From Virgibacillus doumboii (GTDB taxonomy: Bacteria; Bacillota; Bacilli; Bacillales; Amphibacillaceae), in assembly GCF_902806455.1 (NCBI RefSeq), contig NZ_CADCWQ010000001.1, positions 3,038,001 through 3,102,000 of the forward strand: a stretch of DNA of 64,000 bases. The letters are read 5' to 3'. The translations under genes were made by a program, and so were the position numbers. The notes under the pieces are model-generated. The model was not told the DNA's origin, searched no databases, and worked only from the letters and a program-made list of their open reading frames with translations. Positions within the stretch are counted from its first letter, which is position 1; every line of letters starts with the position of its first letter. Positions 39,426 through 61,627 of the stretch are shown here, in pieces.

Positions 39426-39650
39426 GAATGACACCTCCAAATAGTTTTTATTTGTTTCCTTTTTATTATAATTTTACTTATACCTATTATAATACTACTT
39501 ACTAAAGACACTATTGATAATAGCAGAAATGGCTGTGTGTAAGCAAATGAATAGACATTAGTGTGGTTATCTATAAAACATAGTGCGCATGAAAAAGTAA
39601 TGATATTTATCAACATGATTCTTTGATTTGCAGCCTTGTTTATCATGCAG

Positions 39651-39735
39651 TCTGCCGCGGCAGATTGTGACAAACTTCGGCGTTTTCATTGTGAACTCCG
39701 GCGTTTTCCGGTTAAACTTCGGCGATTCGCAGTTT
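39651..39735. repeat. Intergenic repeat array A (three GTGAACTTCGGCG units)
   Basis: Three related units start near 39666, 39690 and 39710: GTGACAAACTTCGGCG, GTGAACTCCGGCG and GTTAAACTTCGGCG. They are spaced about 20-24 bp and separated by TTTTC-type spacers. A 14-bp perfect palindrome, TCTGCCGCGGCAGA (39651-39664), borders the array. It lies between putP and gatC. The core is shared with arrays B and C. Confidence 0.65.
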
Positions 39736-39754
39736 GCTCATTTTTTTCAGCACT

Positions 39755-39793
39755 AAAAAATCCCCCCCCCTCATTAAGGAAAGTGGATTTTTT
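39755..39793 (-). terminator. Terminator of putP with a nine-C tract
   Basis: AAAAAATCC pairs with GGATTTTTT; on the plus strand the loop side contains nine consecutive C residues. Confidence 0.75.
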
Positions 39794-39796
39794 ATC

Positions 39797-41317
39797 TTAT
39801 TCGTTCAGTTTTGCTACGGCTTCATCATATTCAGCTTCAATTTCCTGTGATGGTTTTCCTGCCATACTAACCAATACGGCAACAATCAGGTTAAGTAAGA
39901 AACCAGGAACAATCTCATACAGATCGAATATTCCTCCCGACAGGAAGTCACCCCAGACGATAACGGTTACTGCACCGACTATGATACCTGCCAGTGCACC
40001 ATTTCGGGTAAATCCTTTCCAGAATAGTGCCAGCAGGATAGTAGGACCGAATGCTGCACCAAAACCGGCCCATGCATAACTTACAAGCGTTAATACCGAG
40101 CTGTCCGGATTCGTGGCGATTAAAGCTGCAATCAGTGCAATACCAACTGTAGCAAAACGTCCTACCCATACAAGTTCTTTATCCTTTGCTTCTCGGCGGA
40201 AAATTGCTTTGTAAAAGTCTTCCGCAACTGCTGATGAAGAAACGAGTAATTGCGAGTCAATTGTACTCATAATAGCTGACAGAATTGCAGCTAATAAGAT
40301 ACCCGCAACAATCGGGTTGAATAAAATCTGTGAAAATGCAATAAAGATTTTTTCCGGATCTTCAAGCATCTGAATTCCATTTTCAGTAACAACGGATATA
40401 CCAAATTCACTTAAAACATTGACATCCTGGGTGCTGATAAATGCCAGACCAACAAAGCCTGTAAATATGGCACCGTATAACCCAAGAATCATCCAGGTTG
40501 TACCGATAAAACGTGCTTTTGGAACATCTTTTGCAGACTTTAATGCCATAAAACGGACAATGATATGCGGCTGTCCGAAATATCCAAGACCCCAGGCAAC
40601 TGATGAAATGATGGCTATTATGCCAACCCCTTGAATCATATTGAGATGGTCCGGATTAATTTGTCCTACAGCATTAACTGCAGCATCCCATCCACCCATG
40701 TTATTCAAGGCAACAATCGGAACAACAATTAATGCAAGGAACATTAAAATACCTTGTATAAAGTCAGTCCATGAAACAGCCAGAAAGCCGCCTAATAGTG
40801 TGTACGAAACAACAACCAGCGTTCCTATCCAGAGTGCTGATTGATATGATAATCCAAATGATGCTTCAAATAGTTTCGCGCCCGCTACCATTCCTGATGA
40901 AGTATAAAAAGTGAAGAACAGTAAAATGACTAATGCAGAAATAACACGAAGTATGTGGGACTTGTCTTTAAAGCGGTTTTCCAAAAAGTCCGGGACTGTA
41001 ACAGAGTCTTCCGAAACCTCCGTATAAACACGTAAACGCTTTGCAACGAATTGCCAGTTCAAATAAGCACCAATCGAAAGCCCGATAGCCATCCAAGCTT
41101 CCGACATCCCTGAGGCATAAATCGCACCTGGCAGTCCCAATAACAGCCATCCACTCATATCGGATGCACCGGCACTTAACGCAGCAACTCCAGGACCTAA
41201 TGAACGTCCGCCTAAAACATAATCAGACAAGTTGTTTGTTCTAAAATACATATAAAGGCCGATTCCCAGCATTCCAGCTAAATAAACAATAAACGTAATA
41301 AGCGTTGTCGTACCCAT
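39797..41317 (-). CDS. putP: Sodium/proline symporter (PutP/OpuE type)
   Basis: A 506-residue SSS-family transporter with 13 helices; it starts TLITFIVYLAGMLGIGLYMY and includes SDYVLGGRSLGPGVAALSAG and ASDMSGWLLLGLPGAIYASG. It imports proline with sodium for use as carbon source or osmolyte. In B. subtilis opuE sits at the same place next to gatC. A small membrane ORF ends immediately before its ATG, whose ribosome site GGGAGGA lies inside that ORF. Confidence 0.94.
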   Translation of the reverse strand: MGTTTLITFIVYLAGMLGIGLYMYFRTNNLSDYVLGGRSLGPGVAALSAGASDMSGWLLLGLPGAIYASGMSEAWMAIGLSIGAYLNWQFVAKRLRVYTEVSEDSVTVPDFLENRFKDKSHILRVISALVILLFFTFYTSSGMVAGAKLFEASFGLSYQSALWIGTLVVVSYTLLGGFLAVSWTDFIQGILMFLALIVVPIVALNNMGGWDAAVNAVGQINPDHLNMIQGVGIIAIISSVAWGLGYFGQPHIIVRFMALKSAKDVPKARFIGTTWMILGLYGAIFTGFVGLAFISTQDVNVLSEFGISVVTENGIQMLEDPEKIFIAFSQILFNPIVAGILLAAILSAIMSTIDSQLLVSSSAVAEDFYKAIFRREAKDKELVWVGRFATVGIALIAALIATNPDSSVLTLVSYAWAGFGAAFGPTILLALFWKGFTRNGALAGIIVGAVTVIVWGDFLSGGIFDLYEIVPGFLLNLIVAVLVSMAGKPSQEIEAEYDEAVAKLNE

Positions 41318-41425
41318 TTATTTTTTCCTCCCTTCTGCAATTAAAGTGATAATTGAAAGTAAGATCAAGATTGGCATAGGTATAAATAACCACAGCCACG
41401 TTGCACCAGAAATAGCATATTCCAT
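41318..41425 (-). CDS. Small membrane protein coupled to putP
   Basis: A 35-residue protein from ATG 41425, preceded by AAAGGGGAG: MEYAISGATWLWLFIPMPIL then one hydrophobic helix ending in AEGRKK. Its TAA touches the putP ATG (TAAATG), so the two are almost certainly co-translated. Small single-helix accessory subunits are known for several sodium symporters; an equivalent role here is inference. Confidence 0.65.
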   Translation of the reverse strand: MEYAISGATWLWLFIPMPILILLSIITLIAEGRKK

Positions 41426-41469
41426 AGCACACTCCCCTTTCTGAAAATTTAAAATTTAACCACATTTCA

Positions 41470-41478
41470 ATAATATCA
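41470..41478 (-). promoter_or_regulatory. Candidate extended -10 of the putP transcript
   Basis: On the minus strand TGATATTAT matches an extended -10 element 45 bases before the small ORF. No convincing -35 hexamer. Remainder of 41479-41826 holds no gene. Confidence 0.35.
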
Positions 41479-41826
41479 CAAATACTATACAATCACACTA
41501 GTTTTTTTATTACAACAGTGCACGGTTAATTCTAAACCTTGGAATAATTGTGTCATTTCTGTGACGCACTGAAGTATTAGGACTTATAGACTGTTTAAAA
41601 AAATGAAATAAATTGTTAGATTGAGAGAGGACAAAGTGAAATTTTGATTTTAAATCGAAAATATTGAGATATATTGTGAGATTTATTGAAGTGATGAGAG
41701 AGATTTTTGCGAGTCAGGTTTGGAATATAGTTCTCAGGCGGATGATGATCCTTCTCTGGTTTTCTCTTATTCTGCCGATGTTTTGTTCACGATCTAAGTT
41801 TCTATTATTCTTTAAAACAAAAAAAG

Positions 41827-41856
41827 GCCTGAAACAGCTTCCACACTATTTCAGGC
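41827..41856 (-). terminator. Terminator of the receptor/peptide cassette
   Basis: GCCTGAAA pairs with TTTCAGGC over a 14-base loop, followed on the minus strand by CCTTTTTTTG. About 55 bases after the peptide stop. Confidence 0.8.
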
Positions 41857-41910
41857 AAGTTCATCATATAGTAATAGGGTAAAAAAATTACTGACTAGCT
41901 CTTCAAAGGA

Positions 41911-42048
41911 TTAGAAAAAGCTAGTATCATAACCGATTGAAAATATACTTGGTTCAAGGTCTGACGCTAATTCCGCTGGTTCTTGTGAAAATAGAAAGCC
42001 TCCTACTAGAAGTGCTCCCAATGATACTGTTGCAATTAGCTTTTTCAT
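41911..42048 (-). CDS. Secreted signalling pre-peptide candidate (NprX/PapR-like)
   Basis: A 45-residue peptide from ATG 42048, with AGGAGGGGAG immediately upstream. Positively charged start and hydrophobic core (MKKLIATVSLGALLVGGFLF) form a signal peptide; the rest is FSQEPAELASDLEPS then IFSIGYDTSFF. It begins 14 bases after the stop of the HTH-TPR receptor gene, the usual place of the peptide in RNPP systems. A mature ligand would come from the C-terminal part by extracellular processing; exact ends are unknown. Confidence 0.7.
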   Translation of the reverse strand: MKKLIATVSLGALLVGGFLFSQEPAELASDLEPSIFSIGYDTSFF

Positions 42049-42062
42049 TTATCTCCCCTCCT

Positions 42063-43325
42063 TTACAGATTTATCAATTCCTCATAGGTGATATTTGCTA
42101 ATTTATAATATTTAACAGAATCTTTATACCTATGTTGCTTTTCAAAATGCTTACCAAGCATCTTTGCATAATCGACTAAGTTAGCAAAATTTTTATGCTT
42201 TTGTAAATACGGAATAAATTCATTAATTACCAAATTCTCGAACTTCTCATTATCTTGTTTTATAGCATAATTGTATGAATTGATAACATAGTAATGAATT
42301 TTAAATAATTCTTTATTATTAATGCTATCCAATAATTCAAACCCTTTATCAACCATTTCTTTTGTTTTATCAAAGTTATATATAGAGTAATATTCCTTGA
42401 TTAAAGATGTTACAGCGGTTAATCTAGCGTTTAGTTCAACTTCTGGATCGTTTAATACCTCGACATAGTAGTGAATTGCCTGTTTTGTATCACCTTTTGT
42501 AGAGTGTAAATATCCAAGATTCTGGTTTGTCAGCTGAATAATCTGCTTATTTTTGCTTAATTCACCTAAATGTTTCGCTAAATTATGATGCTTTATTGAT
42601 TTATCATACATTCTAATTCTTCGGTATGAAATCCCCAATACTATATGACACTGGGCACACCGTATAAAATTATATTCTTTACGAAAAGTATCAATGGCTT
42701 TTTCAGCATATTCAATTGCCTCAAGGGTATTATGTAATTTACTATGTGTAACAGCAATTGTATACTGTAGATCAGCTGTTTTACCTTCCGACAACTCAAT
42801 CTGGTTCAATTTTTCCTCTGCAATCTTGTACATTCGCATGGCCTGATTGAATTCAGCATTAGTTGAACTATAATTCCCCTTAAACTTATACCAGTAAAAC
42901 TGATGCAAACTGTCGAAGGTACCAGACATTTCAGTTAATTTATTAATCTGGTTTAAAGCTTCCTCCATTTCACCCAGTACCAAAAAATATCTAATCTTAT
43001 GAATCTCAAACATTATCAGGTTATCTGAGTGATGCTCATACATGAGTTTATTTAATTCATTATAAGTTTCAACCATTTCTTTCTCATTTACCTCAAAAAG
43101 CATCTCATACCACTTCTGGCATTTTTCCCTGATCGTCTCATCTGTTGTGTTGTCCAGTTGAATTCCAAGGCGGGTGCATAACAGGCTTATTACGTTTGGG
43201 CTTGCCTCTGTTTTTTGATTTTCAATTTTTGAGAGATATGCATACGAGACAATTCCATCAGCCAGTTCCGCCTGAGTCATTTCCTGCTTAATTCGGTGCA
43301 GTTTTATATAGGGCCCAATTTCCAT
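42063..43325 (-). CDS. HTH+TPR peptide-responsive regulator (RNPP family, NprR-like)
   Basis: A 420-residue protein from ATG 43325 (site GAGGTGG 8 bases away). Residues 1-65 form an XRE helix-turn-helix (GPYIKLHRIKQEMTQAELAD ... YLSKIENQ). The rest is a series of about nine TPR-like helix pairs, e.g. YAEKAIDTFRKEYNFIRCAQ and NLGYLHSTKGDTKQAIHYYV. NprR of the Bacillus cereus group has the same size and layout; PlcR is shorter. Such receptors bind re-imported peptides and switch transcription. The peptide gene follows directly. Target genes not identified. Confidence 0.85.
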   Translation of the reverse strand: MEIGPYIKLHRIKQEMTQAELADGIVSYAYLSKIENQKTEASPNVISLLCTRLGIQLDNTTDETIREKCQKWYEMLFEVNEKEMVETYNELNKLMYEHHSDNLIMFEIHKIRYFLVLGEMEEALNQINKLTEMSGTFDSLHQFYWYKFKGNYSSTNAEFNQAMRMYKIAEEKLNQIELSEGKTADLQYTIAVTHSKLHNTLEAIEYAEKAIDTFRKEYNFIRCAQCHIVLGISYRRIRMYDKSIKHHNLAKHLGELSKNKQIIQLTNQNLGYLHSTKGDTKQAIHYYVEVLNDPEVELNARLTAVTSLIKEYYSIYNFDKTKEMVDKGFELLDSINNKELFKIHYYVINSYNYAIKQDNEKFENLVINEFIPYLQKHKNFANLVDYAKMLGKHFEKQHRYKDSVKYYKLANITYEELINL

Positions 43326-43433
43326 CTTTATACCCACCTCACCAGCTGAAATTTAAATGAACTAAATATTTTTTCTATAATTATATGATAACATATTTTC
43401 AAATAATTCATATTGGGAAAGTTGAGGAGTAAA

Positions 43434-43488
43434 TATGGCGATAAACACAATAAAAACTTGCCAACTTTCCTGAATTGAGGAAAGTTTG
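43434..43488 (+). other. 12-codon ORF with ribosome site, followed by a hairpin
   Basis: On the plus strand GAGGAGTAAAT precedes an ATG giving MAINTIKTCQLS. The end overlaps the hairpin AACTTTCCT / AGGAAAGTT (43463-43486). It lies between the divergently irrelevant pruA terminator and the receptor promoter region. It may be chance; recorded because ribosome site, ORF and stem lie together. Confidence 0.25.
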
Positions 43489-43490
43489 AC

Positions 43491-43535
43491 AAAAAAAGAC
43501 CCTTTTAACACGTTTTCGTGAAAAAAAGGTCTTTT
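43491..43535 (-). terminator. Terminator of the P5C dehydrogenase gene
   Basis: AAAAAGACC pairs with GGTCTTTTT, with an inner stem CACG/CGTG. T runs on both sides make it usable on either strand. Confidence 0.85.
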
Positions 43536-43546
43536 TGTCTATTGAC

Positions 43547-45094
43547 TTACAGCATTTCTGATGTTGTTTTTCCTTGCATGTGATGGATTAGGTAATCCGG
43601 ACCACCGGCTTTTGAGTCTGTGCCTGACATGTTGAAGCCGCCGAATGGCTGGTATCCAACGATTGCGGCGGTGCAGCCGCGGTTGAAGTAAAGGTTTCCG
43701 ACATGGAAATCTTCGCGTGCTTTTTCCTGATGAACACGATTGTTCGTGATTACCGCGCCAGTCAGGCCGTATTCTGTATTGTTGGCAATTTCGATTGCGT
43801 TATCAAAGTCTTTTGCTTTCGTTAGTGCTACGACCGGACCGAAGATTTCTTCCTGCATGATGCGTGCTTCCGGATCAACGTCAGCAAATACGGTTGGGTT
43901 TACAAACCAGCCTTTGCTGTCATCTCCGTCACCGCCGACAAGAAGTTCACCTTCTTTTTTACCAATTTCAACGTAGCTCATGATTTTATCATATGCAGCC
44001 TGATCAATAACAGGTCCCATAAAGTGTGAATTGTCGTGCGGGTTACCTGCTGTGACATCTTTTGTAATTTCTGCCACACGATCTTTCACTTCGTTATAAA
44101 CGTCCTGATGTATTACCGCTCGTGAACAGGCTGAACATTTCTGGCCGGAGAAGCCGAATGCAGATTGCACGATTGATTGTGCTGCCAGTTCAAGGTCTGC
44201 TTCTTTATCTACAACGATGGTGTCTTTTCCACCCATTTCAATAATTGTGCGTTTCAGCCACTTTTGACCTGGCTGTACTTTTGCTGCACGTTCGAAAATA
44301 CGTGTACCCACATCACGGGACCCTGTGAAGCTTACAAAACGTGTGCGTGGATGGTCGACTAAATAGTCACCAACCTCACTGCCCGGTCCAGGAATGTAGT
44401 TGATTACACCTTTTGGCATGCCTGCCTCTTCAAGTACTTCCATTAATTTATATGCAATAACAGGGGTTGCACTGGCTGGTTTCAACAGTACCGTGTTCCC
44501 TGAAACCATTGCAGCCACTGTGGTACCTGCCATAATCGCGAACAGGAAGTTCCATGGTGAAATAACCACACCAACACCTAATGGGATATAGTTGAATTGA
44601 TTGTGCTCAATTGGACGGCTGTTCACGTGTGCACCATTTTTCAATTCGAGCATTTGACGGCCATAATATTCCATGAAGTCAATAGCTTCAGCTGTATCAG
44701 CATCTGCTTCTTTCCATGGTTTACCGCCTTCCTTAACTAAATGGGCCGTGAATTCGTGCTTACGACGTCTCACAATTGCTGCTGCACGGAATAGGACATC
44801 TGCACGAAACTTGGGATCAGACTTTCTCCACGTTTCAAATGTTTTATCGGCAACTTTCATTGCCTGTTCAGCCAGTTGCTGATTGGCTTTGGAAACATAG
44901 CCGACAACCTCTTTTTTGTTCGCGGGATTTACGGATACGATTTTATCATCAGTAGTGATGCGTTCTCCCCCAATGATCAACGGATATTCTTTACCTAGGT
45001 CAGCTTCCACCTTTTTAAGTGCTTCGAGCATATCTTTCTTGTTTTCTTCAACTGTGAAATCTGTAAAAGGTTCATGCTTGTATGGTACTACCAT
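43547..45094 (-). CDS. pruA: 1-pyrroline-5-carboxylate dehydrogenase
   Basis: A 515-residue aldehyde dehydrogenase of the RocA/PutC type: [35 protein letters not shown], the catalytic glutamate in IEMGGKD and the nucleophilic cysteine in [13 protein letters not shown]. It oxidises pyrroline-5-carboxylate to glutamate, the second step of proline (and arginine) breakdown. It has its own terminator, and putP lies 2 kb away beyond the signalling cassette. AAGGGGG precedes the ATG. No proline dehydrogenase gene is in the window. Confidence 0.95.
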
Positions 45095-45153
45095 TAAAAA
45101 TCCCCCTTAAAATTATAAATTTTACTCCGATGTTTGCGCTTTCATGGAAATAT

Positions 45154-45178
45154 AAAAGATGGAGTAATTCCATCTTTT
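45154..45178 (-). terminator. Terminator of camS
   Basis: AAAAGATGG pairs with CCATCTTTT over a 7-base loop, followed on the minus strand by ATATTT. Confidence 0.7.
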
Positions 45179-45211
45179 ATTTTACCCCAATCATTCAAGT
45201 ACTTCAATGTG

Positions 45212-46474: not shown

Positions 46475-46487
46475 AATTCTCCACTCC

Positions 46488-48506
<2,019 letters not shown>

Positions 48507-50723: not shown

Positions 50724-50736
50724 AATGACACCACCT

Positions 50737-51429: not shown

Positions 51430-51588
51430 CGTATATCCTCCATATGTAAAAAAATTGGATATTTTTTCAGTATCGTAATATAAGTTTTCCCATTCTTAAA
51501 GTATATCAAAAATCGGCGACGGAATTTAGAGGAAAGTTAAATATTTTTGCCTGGGTGGGTGGAAGTTGACATGGAGCGTGTGTGGGTT

Positions 51589-51693
51589 TGTGAACTTTGG
51601 CGAAATGATTGTGAACTTCGAGCAACCTAATTGTGAACTTTGGCGTTTGGCCTGTGAACTTTGGCATGTTTCCTGTGAACTTTGGCATTTAGC
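51589..51693. repeat. Intergenic repeat array B (five units, 21-bp period)
   Basis: TGTGAACTT starts at 51589, 51610, 51632, 51653 and 51674, spacings 21, 22, 21 and 21. Four of five units read TGTGAACTTTGGC, followed by 8 variable bases; the second reads TGTGAACTTCGAGC. It lies between the ABC ATPase terminators and pcrB. No hairpin and no credible gene. Confidence 0.85.
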
Positions 51694-51704
51694 CCGTCAT
51701 CATG

Positions 51705-51746
51705 AAAAAAACCACTATACCGAAGTTACGGAATAACGGTTTTTTT
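51705..51746 (-). terminator. Distal terminator after the TrpX-type operon
   Basis: AAAAAAACC pairs with GGTTTTTTT around an imperfect inner stem. Confidence 0.6.
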
Positions 51747-51764
51747 GAAATCCTTTTGAAAATA

Positions 51765-51795
51765 AACCCGCTAAAATCTATTCAGGCTGCGGGTT
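51765..51795 (-). terminator. Proximal terminator of the TrpX-type operon
   Basis: AACCCGC pairs with GCGGGTT over a 17-base loop overlapping the ATPase stop, followed on the minus strand by TATTTTC. Confidence 0.6.
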
Positions 51796-52588
51796 AACCC
51801 AGTACAGCCCGATCATCTTCAAACTGTGTGCCACGTATTCGCTTGAATTCATGTAACAGATCTTCAAGGGCCAATTTTTGCTTTTCTTCACCACTTACAT
51901 CGAAAATAATCTGTCCTCTATCCATCATAATTAATCTGGTTCCCAAATCCAATGCCTGTTGCATATTATGGGTTACCATTAATGTCGTTAATTCAGATTT
52001 ACGTACCACATCATCTGTAAGCTTGGTGATTAGCTCTGCCCGGGAAGGATCCAATGCAGCCGTATGTTCGTCCAGTAATAGGATATTTGGTTCGGTGAAG
52101 GTTGTCATTAACAACGAAAGTGCCTGCCTTTCTCCCCCGGACAGAAAACCGACTTTAGCTGTTAAACGGTCTTCCAAACCTAATCCGAGCGACTTTAAAT
52201 ATTCGGCAAACATTTCTTTACGCTTCTTCGTTACACCGGGCTTTAGTTTCCTTTTCTTATTACGCGCATAAGCCATCGCTAAATTTTCTTCGATTGTCAT
52301 TGATGGAGCTGTTCCTGCCATCGGATCCTGGAACACACGGCCAATGTATGCTGAACGCCTGTATTCCGGCAAATGCACAACTTGTTTCCCGCCAATAATA
52401 ACATTCCCAACATCTGGAATCAGATTGCCTGAGATGACATTCATTAAGGTTGATTTACCGGCCCCATTACTTCCGATTACGGTTACAAATTCTCCTTTTT
52501 CCAGTTCTAAATTAATATCCTTTAACGCTTTTTTTTCGTCCTGGGTACCCTCATTAAACGTAATTGAAATATCACTTAGTTTCAGCAC
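51794..52588 (-). CDS. ABC importer ATPase (TrpZ type)
   Basis: A 264-residue ATPase: Walker A GSNGAGKST, signature LSGGERQALSLLM and Walker B NILLLDEHTAALD, where the usual Pro after DE is His, a feature common in this family. It partners the permease 2 bases upstream and the lipoprotein SBP. The TrpXYZ-like family often imports tryptophan or tyrosine; no T-box or similar was found here, so the substrate is open. Confidence 0.88.
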   Translation of the reverse strand: MLKLSDISITFNEGTQDEKKALKDINLELEKGEFVTVIGSNGAGKSTLMNVISGNLIPDVGNVIIGGKQVVHLPEYRRSAYIGRVFQDPMAGTAPSMTIEENLAMAYARNKKRKLKPGVTKKRKEMFAEYLKSLGLGLEDRLTAKVGFLSGGERQALSLLMTTFTEPNILLLDEHTAALDPSRAELITKLTDDVVRKSELTTLMVTHNMQQALDLGTRLIMMDRGQIIFDVSGEEKQKLALEDLLHEFKRIRGTQFEDDRAVLG

Positions 52589-52590
52589 GG

Positions 52591-53574
52591 CTAGACCACC
52601 TTTCTTTTATGACCAAGTTGTTTACGCTTTAGCAGACGGCGCTTCTTTTCTTTTCTGGCCTGGAGAATTTTCGGGGTAATTAATGCCGCTATAACGATAA
52701 CAGCTGTAATTACTTTCATGTCCCCTGTTTTCAAAAAGTCAACACGTAGTGCCAATGTAACGATAATACGGTAAATAATTGCTCCTCCAAGAACAGCCAG
52801 TGTCGCTCTTTGAATTGTCTTCGTGCCAAACAGTGCTTCACCAATTATTACGGATGCCAGACCAATAACGATCATCCCAATCCCCATATTCACATTTGCA
52901 AATCCGCCCAACTGTGCAATCAGCCCACCGGAAACGGCAACAAGACCATTCGACAATCCGACGCCAACAATAGTTAATGAATCTGTATTTGCCGATAGAC
53001 TTCGAATCATTCGTTTATTGTCACCAATCGCCCGTAGTGCAAGACCCACATCAGTCTTTAAATAGTAATCTGTCAGCAGTTTGATTAGTAACGTTACAAT
53101 AGTCATAACAATAACGATTATCCATGTAGCAGGTAATTGTTCGGCACCGAAAAATAATACTTTTCCATTAAAAAAAGAATTAATATTTGCTGTAACACCA
53201 ACGGACTCCAGTTGGTTAAAAATGGTTGGCTCATTTAGCATTGAAACTGTAGGCTGTCCCATAATCCGCAAATTGATTGAATATAAGGCGGTCATCATAA
53301 GAATACCAGATAACAATGCATTAACTTTCCCTTTCGTATGCAACAAACCAGTTAAACATCCCGCTATAAATCCGGCAGCCGCTGCCAAGCCTGTTGCGAT
53401 AATAGGAGGGATTCCATTAACAATCGAAATTGCTGCTACACCCGCGCCCGTTACAAAGCTTCCATCCACTGTTAAATCAGGAAAATCCAGAACACGGAAG
53501 GTTAAATAAACGCCAAGAGCCATAATGGCATAAATGACGCCTGACTCCACAGCACCAAACATTGATATAAGCAT
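52591..53574 (-). CDS. ABC importer permease (TrpY type)
   Basis: A 327-residue permease with about eight to nine helices: YAIMALGVYLTFRVLDFPDL then TVDGSF, a typical start for this BPD_transp_2 branch, and a basic C-terminus (KEKKRRLLKRKQLGHKRK). It forms the membrane channel with the ATPase. A long gap with a strong hairpin separates it from the SBP gene. Confidence 0.88.
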   Translation of the reverse strand: MLISMFGAVESGVIYAIMALGVYLTFRVLDFPDLTVDGSFVTGAGVAAISIVNGIPPIIATGLAAAAGFIAGCLTGLLHTKGKVNALLSGILMMTALYSINLRIMGQPTVSMLNEPTIFNQLESVGVTANINSFFNGKVLFFGAEQLPATWIIVIVMTIVTLLIKLLTDYYLKTDVGLALRAIGDNKRMIRSLSANTDSLTIVGVGLSNGLVAVSGGLIAQLGGFANVNMGIGMIVIGLASVIIGEALFGTKTIQRATLAVLGGAIIYRIIVTLALRVDFLKTGDMKVITAVIVIAALITPKILQARKEKKRRLLKRKQLGHKRKVV

Positions 53575-53728
53575 AATTACCTTCCTTCCTTTCGCAACAT
53601 CTATAAAATTACTAGTATACTATGAAAATATAATTGCTATTCTTAACGATTGTTATCATTTAAAGTCTTCTTACCTGACCCGGCAAAAAGCAAAAATCTT
53701 TTATAAAACAGCCAAAATATAAGTGCCT

Positions 53729-53779
53729 GAGAGGGTGTTCCATAGGGTTTGATTCCTTCCTTTATTGAAACACCCTCTC
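53729..53779 (-). other. Strong intercistronic hairpin between SBP and permease genes
   Basis: A perfect 11-bp inverted repeat, GAGAGGGTGTT / AACACCCTCTC, with a 29-base loop. No T run follows on the transcribed strand, so it more likely protects the SBP part of the mRNA or causes partial termination than full termination. Confidence 0.55.
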
Positions 53780-53800
53780 GTTTATTCTTTTAAAATGATA

Positions 53801-54814
53801 TTATTCTGCTGTTTCTACAAACTGTGCTGTTTCGTCCCATTCTTCTTTCCATTCTATTCCCTGTTCTTCTGCAGCTTGCTTATTAATAAACAATTGAATT
53901 TCCGGCGGATACTCTGGAGGAATCTCACTTGGTTCTTTTTCACCTGTTAAAATTGCAGCTGCCATTTCTCCGGAACGGTAGCCAATCTTATTATAATCAA
54001 TTCCAAAGGTTGCAAAGCCACCTTTTTCCAATGAATTTGGTTCTCCAACAATAAGTGGTATATCCTGTTCATTTGCAACCCCGACTACACCATCCAGTGC
54101 TTCAACAACTGTATTATCTGTAATAATATAAAAGACATCTACTTCACTCACAAGTGTTGTTGCAGCCTGTCGTACTTCAGCAGAATTCGCTACTGTACGC
54201 TCAACAATGTTCAGACTAGTTCCTTCAGCAGCTGCCTTCACATCTTCAATCTGACTAACTGAGTTTTGTTCTCCCGCATTATAAATCATGCCTACATTTG
54301 CATCAGAGAAATTAGCGTCAATAAATTCCACTGTTTTTTTAATAGCGTCAGGATGAAGATCAGTCACACCGGTAATATTACCGCCGGATTCGTCCATAGA
54401 AGGTACCAATTCAGCACCCACCGGATCTGTAACAGAAGTAAAGATGATTGGGATTTCTTTTGTCGCTTGCAACGCACCTATCGCACTTGGCGTAGAGTTG
54501 GCAAAAATCAAATCTACATTATCCGAAACAAATCCATCAGAAATCGGCTTTACATTATTTTGGTCGTTCTGTGCGCTTTGCAGATCATACTCCACTTCAA
54601 GTCCGGCATCCGCCAACGCTGCCTTAAAGCCATCATAAGCCGCATCAAGTGATGGGTGTTCCACAATTTGAGTTGCCCCCACTTTATAAGCTTTATCTCC
54701 TTCTGAATCAGAGCCTTCCCCACTTTCTTCATTAGCATCTGAGGAATCGCTTGTTCCACAAGCTGCTAATGCAATAACTCCAATTATTGCAATCAGTTGC
54801 AAAAACCTCTTCAT
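53801..54814 (-). CDS. ABC importer substrate-binding lipoprotein (TrpX type)
   Basis: About 337 residues from ATG 54814 (site GGGAGTATGG). Lipobox ALAACG with Cys19. The sequence matches the ABC_sub_bind family: VGATQIVEHPSLDAAYDGFK, VDLIFANSTPSAIGALQAT, IPIIFTSVTDPVGAEL and IGYRSGEMAAAILTG. An acidic serine-rich linker follows the cysteine. First gene of the three-gene importer operon. Likely ligand a small aromatic amino acid or related compound; not proven. Confidence 0.9.
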   Translation of the reverse strand: MKRFLQLIAIIGVIALAACGTSDSSDANEESGEGSDSEGDKAYKVGATQIVEHPSLDAAYDGFKAALADAGLEVEYDLQSAQNDQNNVKPISDGFVSDNVDLIFANSTPSAIGALQATKEIPIIFTSVTDPVGAELVPSMDESGGNITGVTDLHPDAIKKTVEFIDANFSDANVGMIYNAGEQNSVSQIEDVKAAAEGTSLNIVERTVANSAEVRQAATTLVSEVDVFYIITDNTVVEALDGVVGVANEQDIPLIVGEPNSLEKGGFATFGIDYNKIGYRSGEMAAAILTGEKEPSEIPPEYPPEIQLFINKQAAEEQGIEWKEEWDETAQFVETAE

Positions 54815-54911
54815 ACCATACTCCCATTCATCATTTATATTATTCAAAATATTTAAACGTGATTATATCATACTATTCAACTATTCGCGTAATTTTTTTC
54901 ATGAAATATAA

Positions 54912-54945
54912 AAAAAATGCCGTACCAACTAAGGTAACGACATTT
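54912..54945 (-). terminator. Terminator of yerC
   Basis: An imperfect stem AAATG-CGT-CC with GG-ACG-CATTT over the stop codon, then on the minus strand an eight-T run. Confidence 0.65.
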
Positions 54946-55256
54946 TAGTTATCTTTATTTTCATCGGTATCTGAAATTCGATCCAGCACCATTTGATAGC
55001 CGTCACTGCCGTAATTGATGCAGCGGCGTACGCGTGAGATGGTTGCTGTTGAGGCGTTTGTTTCGTTTTCGATAACCGTGTACGTGTGGCCTTCCGTCAA
55101 CATTTTGGCAACCTGCAAACGCTGAGCAATGGAATGGACCTCTGACATTGTTGCGATATCGTCAAAAAATTTATAGCATTCTTCTCGGTCTTTGAGTGAT
55201 AAAATAGCATCAAAGAATTGATCCAGCTGCTTTCCGCGTAATTTATCAATTTGCAT
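54945..55256 (-). CDS. yerC: YerC/YecD-family TrpR-like HTH protein
   Basis: A 103-residue protein with the TrpR-like HTH IAQRLQVAKMLTEGHTYTVI then ETNASTATISRVRRCINYG. In Bacillaceae it lies beside yerB and is a DNA-binding protein of poorly known targets. It lies 18 bases after yerB and directly before the TrpX-type importer, so a link to tryptophan-like ligand control is possible but speculative. Confidence 0.9.
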   Translation of the reverse strand: MQIDKLRGKQLDQFFDAILSLKDREECYKFFDDIATMSEVHSIAQRLQVAKMLTEGHTYTVIENETNASTATISRVRRCINYGSDGYQMVLDRISDTDENKDN

Positions 55257-55274
55257 GACTTGCCCCCCTGCCTT

Positions 55275-56333
55275 TTACTGGTTTGTTACGTTCACTGACT
55301 GCGCAATTCCCGGGTTTGATGGCACGACGTTAATCCATGTTTTACCAGGCACCAATCCAACCGGCTGACCATTCTTTACAGGAATGATACGGCCATTGCG
55401 ATTTTCCCATTGCACTTCCTGAATTTTACCTTTTTGAATGAGATAGCCGTTTCCACCCGATGTGATATCGATGGCCCGACGACCAGCATCATCAATTACT
55501 TCATGATGGGTTTCGACAATAAATACATTTTCTACCTGTATCGGTTCTTCTGAATTCAATTCGACCGTTTTTTCACGATCGCTAAACCGTGTATATTTTC
55601 CACTTGATTCGTCATATTCAAATTCGACAATCTCCATCGGGTTGTCGGAATAGACAATTTCTACATGGTTTGCTGCTTCACCTGAAATATTTTTCACTTC
55701 GCCCCCAGCCAGGAATGGGAGCGGCTCATAATCATGGGTAACTTCATAACCTTTATCTTTGGCTGCATCATACACGTTTTCAAACAGCAGATAGGAATTG
55801 TGCGGTGCTTGACGGAATGATTCGCGCTTGAACAAATAACCATCATCATCGTGAAGCGAACCATTCAAATGCTCAATCCCGCGATTTTTTATCATATCAT
55901 TTACAAAATTTGCTGCCCCGTGGTAAACATATAATGCATTATAGCCATTTGCCAATTCAAAATAATACTCACGTGCACTGCGGACAGGACCGACTACATC
56001 CGGTTTTTCACTTTGAAACATTGCGAGAAAACGGGTGATTTGTCCCTCTGCCAATATTTCAAATACGATATCCGCCTTGGAAAGTCCCGTTTGCGGACGT
56101 GCCTTTGTATGGTTGTTGACCATTACACTGACAATCCGGTCATTTACTTTCTGATCCGTCTTGATTCCTGTTAGTGGGAACGTATTTGATTTCTCCGGTG
56201 CTTCAGGAGCCTTTTCTTTTTCTTCTACTGCGTTTTCCTTTGATTCACTGTCTTCCGCACTTTGCTCCTCGTCTGAACAAGCCGCAAGCAGGAAGAACAT
56301 TAGTATAAATAGTAAAAAAAGTAACTTCCTCAT
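55275..56333 (-). CDS. yerB: YerB, DUF3048 lipoprotein
   Basis: About 352 residues from ATG 56333 (AAGGAGTGGGGAT). Lipobox LLAAC with Cys19, then a Glu/Lys-rich linker and a DUF3048 domain (VNDRIVSVMVNNHTKARPQT, then SKADIVFEILAEG, and VGPVRSAREYYFELANGYNA). Surface lipoprotein of unknown role, located next to yerA and yerC as in B. subtilis. Confidence 0.93.
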   Translation of the reverse strand: MRKLLFLLFILMFFLLAACSDEEQSAEDSESKENAVEEKEKAPEAPEKSNTFPLTGIKTDQKVNDRIVSVMVNNHTKARPQTGLSKADIVFEILAEGQITRFLAMFQSEKPDVVGPVRSAREYYFELANGYNALYVYHGAANFVNDMIKNRGIEHLNGSLHDDDGYLFKRESFRQAPHNSYLLFENVYDAAKDKGYEVTHDYEPLPFLAGGEVKNISGEAANHVEIVYSDNPMEIVEFEYDESSGKYTRFSDREKTVELNSEEPIQVENVFIVETHHEVIDDAGRRAIDITSGGNGYLIQKGKIQEVQWENRNGRIIPVKNGQPVGLVPGKTWINVVPSNPGIAQSVNVTNQ

Positions 56334-56431
56334 ATCCCCACTCCTTAAAAAAATTATGTCTGTAACGTATAGTATTGGCGCTAACGACTGGTAAGAATAC
56401 ACCAAACTCTACCGCTTTTTTCCATTATACG

Positions 56432-58183
56432 CTATCGCATGGTTGCTGGGAAGAGGACTTCGCGTTTCTTTACGTCCAAAATGCCTTGCTGTGTAATGCG
56501 GATGTAAGGCAAGTGGGTTGCTGATAAAAATAATATTGTATAAACCGGATCGGAAAAATGATAGCCATAGTATTGCAGCAGTTCTCTTAATTGTTTTTCT
56601 TTTTCAATCAACTCGGTCATGGTTCCGGCAAACATACTGCCACCAAGTTTCAATGGTAATTCAAAGATAATTTCTCCTTGATGGGCGAGTACAATCCCGC
56701 CGCCCAGTTCCTTCATTCGTTCCCAGGCCAACAACATATCTGACTTGCTTTTACCGATAAACACAATGTCACCGGTAGTGGAATAAGAACTTACCAGCGC
56801 ACCCAACTGATTGGTAAAGCCTTTAATTGCTGTATTGACGCGCCATTTTCCTTTGCGGTCAACCAGTAAAAGAAATGCATCATCTCGTGTCTTCGGAATT
56901 ACATCAAGCGTTACATCGGTTTCAATGGGATACGGTTTAATGATGACATCATTTACCATATGCAAACCGATTGGGACGGAAAACTGCATATCATCCATGG
57001 TCAGATCCCAATCAAATGTAAGGGGATCCAGCCCATATTTTTCCCAGTTAATCGAACATGATCTTTTTTGTTCCTCATGTGCTTTTACAATCCATTTTCC
57101 TTTTGCCAAAACACTGACAGGGTGCGGATTTTCTTTTTCCTCTAAAATATTAATATTTGCGATTCTGCCCGGTGCAATACACCCGAGCTCTTCAATAAGT
57201 CCATAATGTCTGGCAACATTATGTGATGCCATTCGGTAGGCATACTCAATCGGAATACCCTTATCAATAGCAATTTCAATACAGACGTTCATTAATCCAT
57301 CTTCGTAAAATGCAGGTGTTGCTCCGTCAGTTGTCATTGTAATATTTTCATAGGTTTTAATGTTCTTCGTCTTCAATTCTTCCAGTAACTTTGGCAGATC
57401 CGGTCGAATGGAAGAATAGCGCAAGCCAACCTGATAGCCAAGCTGCAGCCGTTTGACTACTTCGTCGCCTGTCATTGCTTCATGGTCTGCAGACACGCCC
57501 AATAATTTCATTTTCGTTAAGGTTTTCTCGGATGCTCCCGGAAAGTGTCCTTCGATCGGTTTCCCGCGACGTTTTGCTTCCTGAATCCAATACAGCAATC
57601 GCTCATCGCCGGCAAGCAAATTCGGCCATGAGGTTAACTCCCCGCCCTGAACAACAGATTGATGTTCAAGCCATGATAAAACCTGACTTGTATTGAAAAT
57701 TTCACCTTCATCCTGTAATGCTGTCTGCGAGTCAAACCTTGCCCACCAGTACATCGAAACTGGCAAACTATTAAACTCCTCCAGCAAGGAAAACGCTTTC
57801 TTTTCATCCAATAAAAAATTCCACATTAAGTTATCGTTTATTAATGTAGTAGTTCCATATTTTGCAGCATGATGAGCAAGTTCTGCAGGGTTATATAATT
57901 GGAATGGATGCGCATGCGGTTCCATGTATCCAGGCACAAGATATAATCCTTCACAATCCACCACTTCAGTTTCCTGACTGTTTCCTGGAAGACGATCACC
58001 AACATAAACGATGCGATCATTTAAAATCCAGATATTTGCACGCAGCCATTGATTTGTATACGTATTTAAATACATTCCATTTTTCAAAAGAATGTCCGGA
58101 GCTACTGTGCCATCTACGGCAGCAACGTGTTCCCTTATTTCACGATTTCTCCAATAGTATCCATTTTCCAGCATATCAACCAA
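56432..58183 (-). CDS. yerA: YerA-type adenine deaminase-like amidohydrolase
   Basis: A 583-residue amidohydrolase: VPGYMEPHAHPFQLYNPAEL (metal-binding HxH), HFPGASEKTLTKMKLLGVSA then DHEA, and EELGCIAPGRIANINILEE. The C-terminal AdeC half is present (GGIVLAHQGEIIFELPLKLG). It resembles adenine deaminase but B. subtilis YerA is only a paralogue, so activity is uncertain. It sits next to the pur operon. The start could be TTG 58183 or ATG 58174; the site GGAG fits both poorly. Confidence 0.88.
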   Translation of the reverse strand: MVDMLENGYYWRNREIREHVAAVDGTVAPDILLKNGMYLNTYTNQWLRANIWILNDRIVYVGDRLPGNSQETEVVDCEGLYLVPGYMEPHAHPFQLYNPAELAHHAAKYGTTTLINDNLMWNFLLDEKKAFSLLEEFNSLPVSMYWWARFDSQTALQDEGEIFNTSQVLSWLEHQSVVQGGELTSWPNLLAGDERLLYWIQEAKRRGKPIEGHFPGASEKTLTKMKLLGVSADHEAMTGDEVVKRLQLGYQVGLRYSSIRPDLPKLLEELKTKNIKTYENITMTTDGATPAFYEDGLMNVCIEIAIDKGIPIEYAYRMASHNVARHYGLIEELGCIAPGRIANINILEEKENPHPVSVLAKGKWIVKAHEEQKRSCSINWEKYGLDPLTFDWDLTMDDMQFSVPIGLHMVNDVIIKPYPIETDVTLDVIPKTRDDAFLLLVDRKGKWRVNTAIKGFTNQLGALVSSYSTTGDIVFIGKSKSDMLLAWERMKELGGGIVLAHQGEIIFELPLKLGGSMFAGTMTELIEKEKQLRELLQYYGYHFSDPVYTILFLSATHLPYIRITQQGILDVKKREVLFPATMR

Positions 58184-58263
58184 CGCTCCAATAAGTGATT
58201 TTTTCTATCGTAACATATTTTCGCTTTCGTACTGTAACGTTTTTATGAATTAAAGTGAAAATT

Positions 58264-58550
58264 TTGTGACCGGGGTACATTCGATCTAAATGTAGGTGCT
58301 TTCTCGGGTTTTTAGGCGAACAAATTGTGAACTTTGGCAAAGTAATTGTGAACTTTGAGCAACCTAATTGTGAACTTAAGCGAATTCTTTGTGAACTTTG
58401 GCATTTTCGCACCCAGACCGTTCGTTTGAGGGTTTCCTGTGCAACTGAAATGTGAACTAAGAGAGAAATTTGTGAACTTGAGCGGATTTTCTGTGAACTT
58501 AAGCCAAGTTTGTGAACACTTAAGCGGTTTCTGTGACAACTTAAGCCGAA
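58264..58550. repeat. Intergenic repeat array C (about ten units)
   Basis: TGTGAAC or close variants start at 58326, 58347, 58369, 58390, then 58438 (variant), 58451, 58471, 58492, 58511 and 58532. Spacings are mostly 19-22 bp. Units read TGTGAACTTTGGC or TGTGAACTTAAGC. It shares a 32-bp block with array B. Between the purD terminator and yerA. The rest of 58184-58608 holds no gene. Confidence 0.85.
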
Positions 58551-58572
58551 TCGCATTTTTTTAAAATAACAA

Positions 58573-58600
58573 GCCTGAGAACGGCCGGATCTTCTCAGGC
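58573..58600 (-). terminator. Terminator of the pur operon
   Basis: GCCTGAGAA pairs with TTCTCAGGC across 10 bases, then TTGTTATTTT on the minus strand. 9 bases after the purD stop. Confidence 0.88.
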
Positions 58601-58608
58601 TCACACAG

Positions 58609-59856
58609 TTATTTTTTTCCGATATCAGTCCGGTAAAAGAACTCACTTGATTCGGAATAGCTGTTTAAACACTGATAAGATAGCTCTGCAGCTTTTTCCA
58701 GCGTTGTTCCTTTAGCACCTGCCAGCAAGACTCTGCCACCATCGGATACCAGCCCTGTTTCGGATTGCTTTGTACCCGCATGAACAACAAACCCTTCAGC
58801 CAACGAATCCAAATTCTTCAATGGAATCCCTTTATTATATGATGCAGGATACCCTTTTGATGCCAAAACCACCCCTGCACAGCAATTATTTTCCCACTCG
58901 AGATGGGGGTCTCTCTCCTCTATCACATCGGTAATGACCTGCAGCAAGTCATTGCGCAACAGAGGTAAAACAACCTGTGTTTCCGGATCCCCAAAGCGGA
59001 CATTAAATTCAATGACTTTTGGACCATCCATTGTCATAATTAACCCTGCATAAAGGATTCCGGTGAATGGCCGTTCTTCTGCAACCAGGCTATCAGCTGT
59101 TTTTTGTAAAATGTTCTCTGTGGCAAAAGAAAGATGTTCAGCTGTGATATCTTCTGCCGGAGCATATGCACCCATGCCTCCTGTGTTCGGACCTTCATCA
59201 TTATCATAAGCACGTTTATGATCTCTCGCCGGCACCATCGGATAAACATTATTTTCATGAACAAATGCCATCAATGAAAATTCCATACCCTGTAAAAATT
59301 CCTCGATCACAATGGTTGCGCCTGCTTCGGCAAACGACTTCGCAACAAGCATATCATCAACTGCCTGGTGTGCCTGTTCAATCGTCTCCGCCACGACAAC
59401 GCCCTTCCCAGCAGCAAGTCCGTCCGCTTTTACAACGATCGGTGCACCTTTTTCATTAATATATTCTTTTGCCGCATCAGCATTCGTAAAACTGGCATAG
59501 TCCGCGGTAGGGATGCCATGTTTCAGCATAAATTCTTTGGCAAACCGTTTGCTTCCCTCCAGTAATGCAGCCTCTTTCGTCGGGGCAAAAACAGCCAGAT
59601 TTTCTTCGCGAAACCTGTTTGCAATCCCTGCAAGCAGCGGGTTTTCCGGGCCAACGATGGTTAGGTCAATTTTATACACTTTAGCAAAATCCACCAGACC
59701 ATCGATATCCATTTCATCGATACGTACACACGTTGCTTGCTCAGCAATTCCGCCATTTCCCGGTGCCGCAAAGATTTGATTGACTCTATCACTCTCTGCC
59801 AGTTTCATAACTATACTATGTTCACGCCCACCACGACCGACAACTAATATATTCAT
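58609..59856 (-). CDS. purD: Phosphoribosylamine-glycine ligase
   Basis: A 415-residue GARS enzyme with the ATP-grasp fold: NILVVGRGGREHSI, GIPTADYASF, PIVVKADGLAAGKGVVVA and EFNVRFGDPETQVVLPLL. It adds glycine to phosphoribosylamine in purine synthesis. Last gene of the purine operon, 20 bases after purH. Confidence 0.96.
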   Translation of the reverse strand: MNILVVGRGGREHSIVMKLAESDRVNQIFAAPGNGGIAEQATCVRIDEMDIDGLVDFAKVYKIDLTIVGPENPLLAGIANRFREENLAVFAPTKEAALLEGSKRFAKEFMLKHGIPTADYASFTNADAAKEYINEKGAPIVVKADGLAAGKGVVVAETIEQAHQAVDDMLVAKSFAEAGATIVIEEFLQGMEFSLMAFVHENNVYPMVPARDHKRAYDNDEGPNTGGMGAYAPAEDITAEHLSFATENILQKTADSLVAEERPFTGILYAGLIMTMDGPKVIEFNVRFGDPETQVVLPLLRNDLLQVITDVIEERDPHLEWENNCCAGVVLASKGYPASYNKGIPLKNLDSLAEGFVVHAGTKQSETGLVSDGGRVLLAGAKGTTLEKAAELSYQCLNSYSESSEFFYRTDIGKK

Positions 59857-59877
59857 AGAAAAACACCTTTCCTGTTT

Positions 59878-61401
59878 TTAATGTTTAAAATGCCGCATTC
59901 CTGTAAATACCATGGCAATCCCGTGCTCGTTGCACATATCAATAGAATCCTGATCACGCTTGGAACCACCCGGCTGAATGATTGCTTTTACACCTGCTTT
60001 TGCTGCTACTTCCACGGTATCTGGCATTGGAAAAAATGCATCTGAAGCAAGTACGGTTCCCTCAGCCTTCTCTCCTGCCTGCTTAATGGCAATGTTCGCT
60101 GCACCCACACGATTCATCTGGCCTGCACCGACACCGACCGTTTGCTTGTTGCTGGCAAGTACGATCGCATTTGATTTCACATGCTTGACAGCCTTCCAGG
60201 AAAATAACAGATCCTCGATTTGTTCATTGGTAGGTTTCTTTTCAGTCGGATACGTCAGTTGTTCCTTTTTCAGGTCGGCCGCATCGTTGCTTTGAATGAG
60301 CACCCCGCCTTTGACTGTTGTGAGTTTATGATAGTTTGATTGATTGTTGTCCATCCGCAATGTAAGAAGACGAATGTTTTTCTTTTTCGTTAAAATCGTT
60401 AACGCTTCCTCCGTAAATGAAGGGGAAATGATAATTTCCAAAAATATGCCGCTCAATTTTTTTGCCAGGTCAGCGTCAATTTCCCGGTTACATGCTACAA
60501 TACCGCCAAAAATTGATACTGAGTCTCCCTCATATGCTTTGTCGAATGCACGATTGATTGTTTCAGCAACGCCGATTCCGCATGGATTCATATGCTTTAC
60601 TGCTACAGTGCTTGGATCGCTGTATTCCGCGATAATCTCCAGTGCAGCATTTGCGTCCTGAATATTATTGTAGGAAAGTTCTTTGCCGTGTAATTGTGTT
60701 GCTGATGCAAGACTCATCGATGTGTTTATCGGATTCTTGTAAAATGCCGCCTGCTGGTGCGGGTTCTCCCCATAGCGAAGTGTCTGCACTTTTTCATAGG
60801 TAACAGTATGATTTTTCGGGAAAGGTTCATCGGTAAAATAATCGGCAATCAACGCATCGTAATGGGCTGTGTGACGGAACACCTTGGCAGCCAGCTGTTT
60901 ACGTTGAGCTTTGTCCATTTTCCCTTCAGTTAGGCCGGTGATCACATCATCATAATCAGCCGGGTCCACCACTACGGTTACATCGCCAAAGTTCTTGGCA
61001 GCCGCACGCAGCATTGTCGGACCACCGATATCAATATTTTCAATGATTTCTTCTTCGGTAACGTTTATTTGATCAAGCGTTTGTTTGAATGGATAAAGAT
61101 TCACAACGACCATGTCTATCGGAAGGATATTATGTTCCTGAAGTTGTGCTTGATGGCTGGAATGATCACGCTTAGCCAGTAACCCTCCATGAATGGAAGG
61201 ATGCAGTGTCTTAACACGTCCATCAAGGATTTCCGGCGATTCCGTAACCTGTTCTACAGCAATCGCTTCGACGCCTGCCTCTACCAATGCCTTTAGCGTG
61301 CCACCCGTGGAAATTATGTCGTAATCAAGTTCTGTGAGTTTTTTTGCGAATTCAGTAATATTGGATTTATCGGATACACTGATAAGTGCTCGTTTTTTCA
61401 T
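59878..61401 (-). CDS. purH: Bifunctional AICAR transformylase / IMP cyclohydrolase
   Basis: A 507-residue PurH. The N-terminal cyclohydrolase part has ALISVSDKSNITEFAKKL and GRVKTLHPSIHGGLLA; the transformylase part has AVKHMNPCGIGVAETI and NAIVLASNKQTVGVGAGQMN. It performs the last two steps to IMP. In contrast to the usual tight pur operons, 231 bp with a repeat array separate it from purN. Confidence 0.96.
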   Translation of the reverse strand: MKKRALISVSDKSNITEFAKKLTELDYDIISTGGTLKALVEAGVEAIAVEQVTESPEILDGRVKTLHPSIHGGLLAKRDHSSHQAQLQEHNILPIDMVVVNLYPFKQTLDQINVTEEEIIENIDIGGPTMLRAAAKNFGDVTVVVDPADYDDVITGLTEGKMDKAQRKQLAAKVFRHTAHYDALIADYFTDEPFPKNHTVTYEKVQTLRYGENPHQQAAFYKNPINTSMSLASATQLHGKELSYNNIQDANAALEIIAEYSDPSTVAVKHMNPCGIGVAETINRAFDKAYEGDSVSIFGGIVACNREIDADLAKKLSGIFLEIIISPSFTEEALTILTKKKNIRLLTLRMDNNQSNYHKLTTVKGGVLIQSNDAADLKKEQLTYPTEKKPTNEQIEDLLFSWKAVKHVKSNAIVLASNKQTVGVGAGQMNRVGAANIAIKQAGEKAEGTVLASDAFFPMPDTVEVAAKAGVKAIIQPGGSKRDQDSIDMCNEHGIAMVFTGMRHFKH

Positions 61402-61480
61402 AAAAAAACACCTCGCTATAGTTGGATATGTTATGAAGATTGTTTATTGCTTGATTCACTTGGATAATTGCGTGTTGTTG

Positions 61481-61627
61481 TTGCGCGTTTTGAGTGACCC
61501 GTTGCGCGACTTTGAACTGTTTTCGCGCGGATTTGTGCTGTTGTTGCGCGACTTCGGGCTGTCCTCGCACGACTTCTGGTTGTTCCCGCGCGACATTGGA
61601 CTGTTCTTGCGCGACTTTCGGTAAAAT
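61481..61627. repeat. Intergenic repeat array D (seven units, exact 21-bp period)
   Basis: Units start at 61481, 61502, 61523, 61544, 61565, 61586 and 61607, exactly 21 bp apart. Consensus TTGCGCGACTT plus 10 variable bases rich in CTGTT. Head variants are TCGCGCG, TCGCACG and CCGCGCG. It fills most of the gap between purN and purH within the operon. GC-rich compared with the surroundings. Confidence 0.9.

Follow-up and report, generated by a model that had tools for sequence, protein, structure and literature searches.

What are the short tandem repeats that recur, at a period of about 21 bp, in four gaps between genes on one stretch of the Virgibacillus doumboii chromosome, and to what do they owe their presence there? 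The stretch (hereafter the window) comprises 64 kb, C1:3038001-3102000 of a 3.9-Mb genome that we call G000, and an earlier note had described its four arrays, A to D, as a single family of intergenic repeats. Using Tandem Repeats Finder (TRF) with a score cut-off of ≥60, we recovered arrays of period 21–22 at the same four places (Table 1), all of them between called genes, with no gene overlaps and with the surrounding genes on the − strand; at that score no further array with a period of 19–23 was found anywhere in the 64 kb, and 20 first-order Markov shuffles of the window yielded none. The period and the intergenic position were thus borne out. The single family was not: judged by their letters, A–C (GTGAACTT type) and D (TCGCGC type) are two families, which match different paralogs of a nuclease-like gene. 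Within A–C the common GTGAACTT membership stood, with the corrections that A is weak (~3 units, with a diverged core) and that C is two blocks, the second carrying GAGC or AAGC in place of GGC; in a unit scan, the first ~55 bases of the span originally reported for C held nothing periodic. The conserved core and the variable half of a unit are both contained in one 21–22-bp step. The answer that emerges from sequence comparison is that a nuclease-like lineage of NERD proteins is paired with private tandem arrays, copies of which are dispersed between genes.

The pairing came to light in related genomes. At least 48 of 159 genomes of the family had array matches (counts per genome are lower bounds, with 22 candidates scored in each), and pairs of matches recurred ~1.1–1.2 kb apart. 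Seven of nine such pairs that we inspected bracket one type of gene, which adjoins ypsA in several species and encodes a NERD protein (PF08378). Three array-flanked proteins scored 61.9–65.1 bits against this family in hmmscan, versus a cut-off of 22.1, and at E ≤ 0.001 PF08378 was the only family that any of the three matched, with no match to Transposase_17 (PF01797). The two other pairs bracket non-NERD genes, one (L105:2608-3471, in genome G083) encoding a metallo-beta-lactamase-fold protein and the other (L107:3032-3745, in G001) a protein with no Pfam match.

G000 itself contains 11 NERD matches, which differ in the arrays beside them (Table 1), and the window arrays could be assigned among these paralogs by the sharing of 7-mers. 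Arrays A and B best matched the arrays of paralog N1 (L142), with sharing of 0.15 versus 0.047 for shuffled sequence and 0.27 versus 0.041, respectively. Block 1 of array C matched those of N1 and N2 about equally (0.19 and 0.18 versus 0.055), and block 2 matched those of N2 (L144; 0.22 versus 0.051). Array D matched the arrays of N4 (L140; 0.12 versus 0.039). Together with four other D-type arrays it fell to N4 or N5, and the array at L026 matched N3; the margins for the D type were modest (0.10–0.18 versus 0.034–0.040) and that for B was larger.

To see how far the association extends, we scanned genome contigs with an alignment of seven proteins and retained the best 80 of 119 loci encoding a NERD domain, a zinc ribbon and a winged helix; a single winged-helix peptide pattern led to these 80, so they are not a sample of all NERD genes. 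An array of ~20–21 bp adjoined the gene in 67 of the 80 (upstream in 45, downstream in 49 and on both sides in 27), so that 94 of 160 flanks (59 percent) carried one, compared with 22 of 675 control windows (3.3 percent) of equal size taken >700 bp away within the same loci (Fisher 1.6e-58; the TRF thresholds, the 1e-80 cut for close relatives used below and the window sizes were set after the data were seen). The period was 21 bp in 57 of the 94 flanking arrays and 20 bp in 31, ranging from 19 to 22 bp, and a period of 20–21 bp was common to unrelated units. With periods this short and the whole unit inside the period, the claim that the arrays are not CRISPR held up.

Where both sides of a gene were occupied (n = 27), the two arrays shared far more 7-mers in direct orientation (mean 0.44) than in inverted orientation (0.036) or between loci (0.018), and direct sharing exceeded inverted sharing in 25 of the 27 loci. 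Locus L239 of Paraliobacillus quinghaiensis is a clear exception, in that its flanking arrays (3592-3645 and 5044-5117) are inverted; L230 has little sharing in either orientation. In 17 loci most GATAAA copies were on the strand of the NERD gene, and in no locus were most of them on the opposite strand. Array similarity rose with NERD protein identity, only above ~45 percent identity (Mantel r 0.36 over 67 loci, matched in 0 of 2000 permutations). Arrays grown by passive slippage, with no relation to NERD beyond a gene that happens to lie in repeat-rich stretches, would agree with the wide variation in unit number seen at one site (described below); given the rarity of arrays in the same-locus controls, the private units that agree across the two flanks of a gene and the correlation with protein relatedness, that explanation is scarcely tenable.

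The association seems specific to one kind of NERD gene. Among 29 NERD loci taken from across the phylum we found no ~20–21-bp array in the 48 flanks seen (for 10 long genes, the upstream flank only), and none of the 29 has a zinc ribbon; a pair of CxxC motifs was absent throughout, as was the winged-helix motif. In 12 further loci picked by hand (TRF score 40), arrays flanked four of the six from genomes G345 and G370 and none of the six others, two of which repeat genes of the 29; two CxxC motifs were present in the NERD-like open reading frame (ORF) at five of the six G345 and G370 loci. In a hand tally among the matches listed, arrays occurred in at least 24 of 25 genomes with a close NERD relative (E ≤ 1e-80) versus at least 24 of 134 others, a comparison that phylogeny confounds, related genomes not being independent; five or more arrays occurred in at least 19 of the 25 versus at least 3 of the 134. 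The dispersal extends to two distant genera: units of the organism's own NERD array matched 27 times in Metabacillus idriensis and 38 times in Peribacillus frigoritolerans, with 2 matches for the control in each; these counts include the NERD-side copies, and tandem clusters were also present at other sites.

The array-linked protein consists of a NERD domain, which is PD-(D/E)XK-like, a four-cysteine zinc ribbon and a winged helix. Structure comparison brought out winged-helix and nuclease-like folds, with AspA among the matches, and residues of catalytic type are conserved in the array-linked family. From these residues and the fold class, we regard the protein as a putative nuclease, and it very probably recognises the unit of its cognate array. 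The earlier proposal of a binding site for a protein that reads one face of the DNA has in this way gained a candidate partner. Six of seven NERD pairs were under purifying selection (dN/dS, the ratio of nonsynonymous to synonymous rates, 0.11–0.15), and 12 of the 80 NERD matches contained in-frame stops. A tblastn search with NERD query P0003 at 1e-10 found no match in the plasmid or phage collections, although absence there is not proof.

The purifying selection and the chromosomal location, with no plasmid or phage record matched, are consistent with a domesticated host function, in which NERD would dock at arrays chromosome-wide (to deal, for instance, with incoming DNA, stalled forks or clashes between transcription and replication), while the arrays would disperse by ordinary recombination and slippage without involvement of the nuclease. 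The in-frame stops run counter to such a role, as does the presence of many paralogous enzyme-array pairs in one genome, and we consider it an unlikely, if serious, alternative; further evidence bearing on it came from the distribution of the arrays.

Copies of the arrays are numerous in G000, and they do not lie mainly in reading frames. The pattern TGTGAACTTYGGC occurred exactly 51 times in the genome versus 0 times for the reversed pattern, and a sequence-only model built from ten arrays found 58 places at E ≤ 0.1. These numbers, with an occupancy that differs between species, agree with a dispersed repeat; the earlier note had suggested a selfish one. For the analysis of gene context we used the 53 best model matches (E up to 0.0011). 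No called gene encloses any of these, and in a single case a match extends over the final codons of a NERD ORF. In codirectional gaps, 35 arrays were co-oriented with the genes versus 7 opposite (binomial 1.5e-5); nine of the 53 lay in convergent gaps and two in divergent ones, with one of the nine convergent cases (C1:2826273) misassigned owing to overlap between the array and the NERD ORF. Solo arrays lay mostly downstream of a gene and were co-oriented with it.

That arrays follow the 3′ ends of genes in this orientation is the one observation in favour of an RNA-level 3′ element, whether a Rho-type terminator, a processing site or an mRNA stabiliser. Yet the sense strands of the window arrays showed no more folding than shuffled sequence did (z −0.65 to 1.45), in agreement with the earlier view that they are not hairpins, and Rfam at gathering score had 0 matches in the window; the exceptions to the lack of folding were the + strand of array A, for which z was −2.1 in a stretch that included the flanks, and a self-complementary core of D, TCGCGCGA, noted by eye in some copies. 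Nor did the 94 flanking arrays have the C-over-G bias of Rho sites (mean C/(C+G) 0.52 on the NERD strand), and a terminator between purN and purH, a gap that contains arrays in most genus members, would stop transcription before purH. An RNA element would also leave unexplained both the NERD linkage and the 20–21-bp period across unrelated units. We therefore found no positive support for the RNA-level role that had been proposed, and think it very improbable.

Orientation also followed replication, with 43 of 51 arrays in the leading-strand direction by GC skew (a count that omits two arrays on contig C2 below 100 kb). In codirectional gaps on the lagging strand (n = 8), a hand count gave 4 versus 4, and the directions of genes and forks coincide too frequently for replication and transcription to be separated here as the cause of the orientation. 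We also observed that C1 1270407-2208727 (~0.94 Mb), a region around the terminus by GC skew, contains no GTGAACTT-type array; the chance of such an array-free stretch would be ~4e-7 had it been named beforehand, and here it was chosen afterwards. Both the co-orientation with genes and the leading strand and the absence from this region count towards a host function that operates along the chromosome.

The internal structure of the dispersed arrays suggests how they arose. Of 151 unit steps listed, 98 were 21 bp and 29 were 22 bp, and 24 of the 53 arrays combined at least four units with a 22-bp step. The signature of unit 2, GAGCAACC, was present in 19 of the 53 under a loose match that allowed up to four substitutions in 15 bases. 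An order shared in this way points to copying of whole arrays, not to fresh growth at each place. In ten aligned arrays, conservation stopped at the array edges and, by eye, a common terminal inverted repeat, which along with a target duplication would mark a MITE or transposon end, was not seen.

We then compared fixed sites among genus relatives, which include Virgibacillus and Lentibacillus species. At ypsA, for which 19 of 28 loci found were compared, NERD adjoins the gene in 9 of 12 genus members, with a decayed copy in G003 and a split one in G001. Species differ in the array subtype at this site, and G001, G003 and G004 have a reduced upstream array or none at all; in G008 the order is array, another gene, then NERD. 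G005 and G006 have no NERD at ypsA, and G006 retains one array unit, the single remnant among the 19 genomes, none of which offered an empty allele with defined junctions. Retention of NERD next to ypsA in several genera is a further point for a domesticated function, against which stands the variation of occupancy and array type between species of one genus.

Outside the genus, seven readable genomes have −11 to 16 bp between purN and purH, the site of array D. Within the genus, TCGCGC-like arrays (by eye) have 9.8 copies in G009, 30 in G010, 22 in G008, 4.8 in G007, 7.5 in G001 and 5.6 in G000, with two short blocks in G005 and, again by eye, fragments in G006 and G011. G004 has a GCCAAAGTTTGG array instead, and no array was detected in G002 or in G003, whose gap the gene caller left unresolved. 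Thus, both unit number and array type change at a fixed address. The 30 copies of AAACTCGAGCGAGCAGCACCC in G010 (L342:2068-2698) are close in sequence to the array that adjoins L256, a NERD gene of that species. The G002 gap (L341) is occupied by an unrelated 211-bp stretch with TTCCGGACATACACTTCGCTTTCCGCGGG, similar to one in the pcrB gap of G001 (L331), which may be another dispersed repeat. At pcrB, the site of array B, we found no array in eight genus relatives, in all of which a yerC-like gene directly precedes pcrB. This is not a clean empty site, because G000 has an extra three-gene block (window 51794-54847: an ABC ATPase at 51794, a gene at 52591 and a lipoprotein-like substrate-binding protein at 53801) between yerC (54945-55256) and pcrB, with array B at one edge of the block.

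Some of these features recall a homing cassette, in which the nuclease would cut NERD-less arrays and the gene would be copied in through array homology, so that direct flanking arrays represent a split and duplicated target and solo arrays represent uninvaded targets or remnants. The direct arrays in 25 of 27 two-sided loci, the frequent decay of the gene, the one-unit remnant behind ypsA in the NERD-less G006 site and the three related NERD copies at different G000 sites all accord with this scheme. However, each flank in G000 and G010 is a complete five-unit array rather than half of one, and the NERD gene beside ypsA has been inherited in place in most of the genus, making a homing cassette improbable.

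The account we favour, and hold to be probably correct, is that the arrays are cognate DNA sites of chromosomal nucleases with NERD, zinc-ribbon and winged-helix parts, which spread, amplify and homogenise them. The winged helix would read the conserved half of each unit, and at two helical turns per unit the sites would fall on one face of the DNA, allowing the proteins to load together. The NERD domain might then nick or cut inside arrays, and repair from other arrays would cause them to expand, shrink and homogenise; copying during repair could also carry whole arrays, and occasionally the nuclease gene, into new intergenic places. Such a mode of action would resemble that of repetitive extragenic palindromes and their associated tyrosine transposases (REP/RAYT), or of a homing nuclease whose target became a repeat. 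For the nuclease-driven spread and homogenisation taken by themselves, we put the case at about even. The chances are similarly balanced that this is an undescribed system of Bacillales, selfish or half-domesticated, in which NERD nucleases recognise, amplify and disperse their own ~21-bp arrays, one genome housing several paralogous enzyme-array pairs alongside each other; in the titles and abstract openings of open-licence papers, we found no description of NERD genes paired with tandem arrays.

Several features adjoin the arrays or resemble them. The gene just 3′ of the D-type NERDs in G000 has 21-bp coding repeats of its own, with DGMDKRFDGIDNRL-like heptads (L140:2797-2909 and L143:2770-2893). 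In some species the NERD ORF reads on into the 3′ array, as at L100:3294-3385 of G000, so that the last ~30 residues are array-encoded, with low model confidence there. We also considered whether the arrays are coding heptads, 21 bp corresponding to a 7-residue repeat, and rejected this because the 22-bp units break the frame and no array in the gene-context set lies wholly in a called gene.

Table 1. Arrays in the window and NERD loci of G000 with the arrays beside them.
Feature	Position	Strand	Description	Genes flanking the gap	TRF interval and score	Model match E
Array A	39664..39733	−	~3 diverged units, GTGAACTT family; sense strand reads GTTCACA	SSF symporter (39797-41317), small ORF (39135-39440)	39672-39724, score 64	2.3e-7
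Array B	51584..51696	−	five units, GTGAACTT family; unit 2 = 22 bp with GAGCAACC signature	ABC-transporter ATPase gene, pcrB	51588-51694, two overlapping rows, scores 72 and 91	6.7e-30
Array C, block 1	58321..58408	−	four units, GTGAACTT family	purD, adenine deaminase gene	58315-58403, score 99	2.1e-20
Array C, block 2	58448..58550	−	variant subtype, GAGC/AAGC replacing GGC	purD, adenine deaminase gene		5.3e-7 (58448-58517)
Array D	61481..61627	−	21-bp units, TCGCGC family, ~5.5 copies	purN, purH	61504-61618, score 104	
NERD loci L142, L144			GTGAACTT-type arrays on both sides			
NERD locus L145			GCTAAAG array on 3′ side			
NERD loci L140, L143			TCGCGC arrays (family of window array D) on both sides			
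NERD locus L146			20-bp ATATCAACC array on both sides			
NERD locus L141			20-bp array on one side			
NERD loci L139, L147, L148, L149			no arrays			

How does the pairing compare with known systems? CRISPR arrays have repeats of ~23–50 bp, with unique spacers of comparable size between them. The NERD-linked arrays are likewise regular tandem repeats adjoining a nuclease gene, but their period is 20–21 bp, the unit fills the period and spacers of the usual type are absent. NERD is named among putative CRISPR auxiliary genes in one paper (PMC10910872), and arrays of the type described here might contribute to a score of that kind. A study of SmdA, a NERD membrane protein, states that it lacks several conserved NERD residues and that, to its authors' knowledge in 2022, the role of bacterial NERD had not been studied (PMC9040797). 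The array-linked family shares the domain with SmdA by name, but it keeps the conserved residues and adds the zinc ribbon and winged helix. This zinc-ribbon/winged-helix branch of NERD now gains a candidate DNA target, readable base by base from dozens of natural variants, and the matched variants of enzyme and site should be good material for studying how winged helices choose their sites.

A homing endonuclease gene is a free-standing nuclease gene inside its own target, the empty allele of which is cut. The NERD gene similarly lies within its presumed target and has related and decayed copies, but the array target is present at dozens of sites and each flank in G000 and G010 is a full array. 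Plasmid iterons and centromere arrays are tandem, helix-phased sites of ~20–22 bp bound by winged-helix or similar proteins. The NERD-linked arrays have the same helix-phased tandem organisation and a winged-helix partner that presumably binds them, but they differ in their many chromosomal intergenic copies and in being linked to a protein with a nuclease-like domain.

The nearest analogue, without membership, is REP/RAYT, in which, according to one report, inverted palindromic repeats surround the gene of a Y1 enzyme, and the phylogenies of repeat and enzyme correspond (PMC2817692). In both systems an enzyme gene is flanked by the same repeat as is scattered intergenically in many copies (58 in G000, and 27 and 38 in two other genera), and the repeat tracks the relatedness of the enzyme. 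They differ in that the enzyme here is a NERD protein, with no Transposase_17 (PF01797) match in the three proteins scanned, that direct ~21-bp tandem arrays rather than two inverted palindromes flank it, and that the units are not palindromic by sense-strand folding of the window arrays. If the nuclease does not move the arrays, they would constitute a genome-wide set of sites for some DNA-processing job. If it does move or homogenise them, they would represent a second, unrelated route by which short intergenic repeats fill bacterial genomes, and the system would be a non-transposase counterpart of REP/RAYT.

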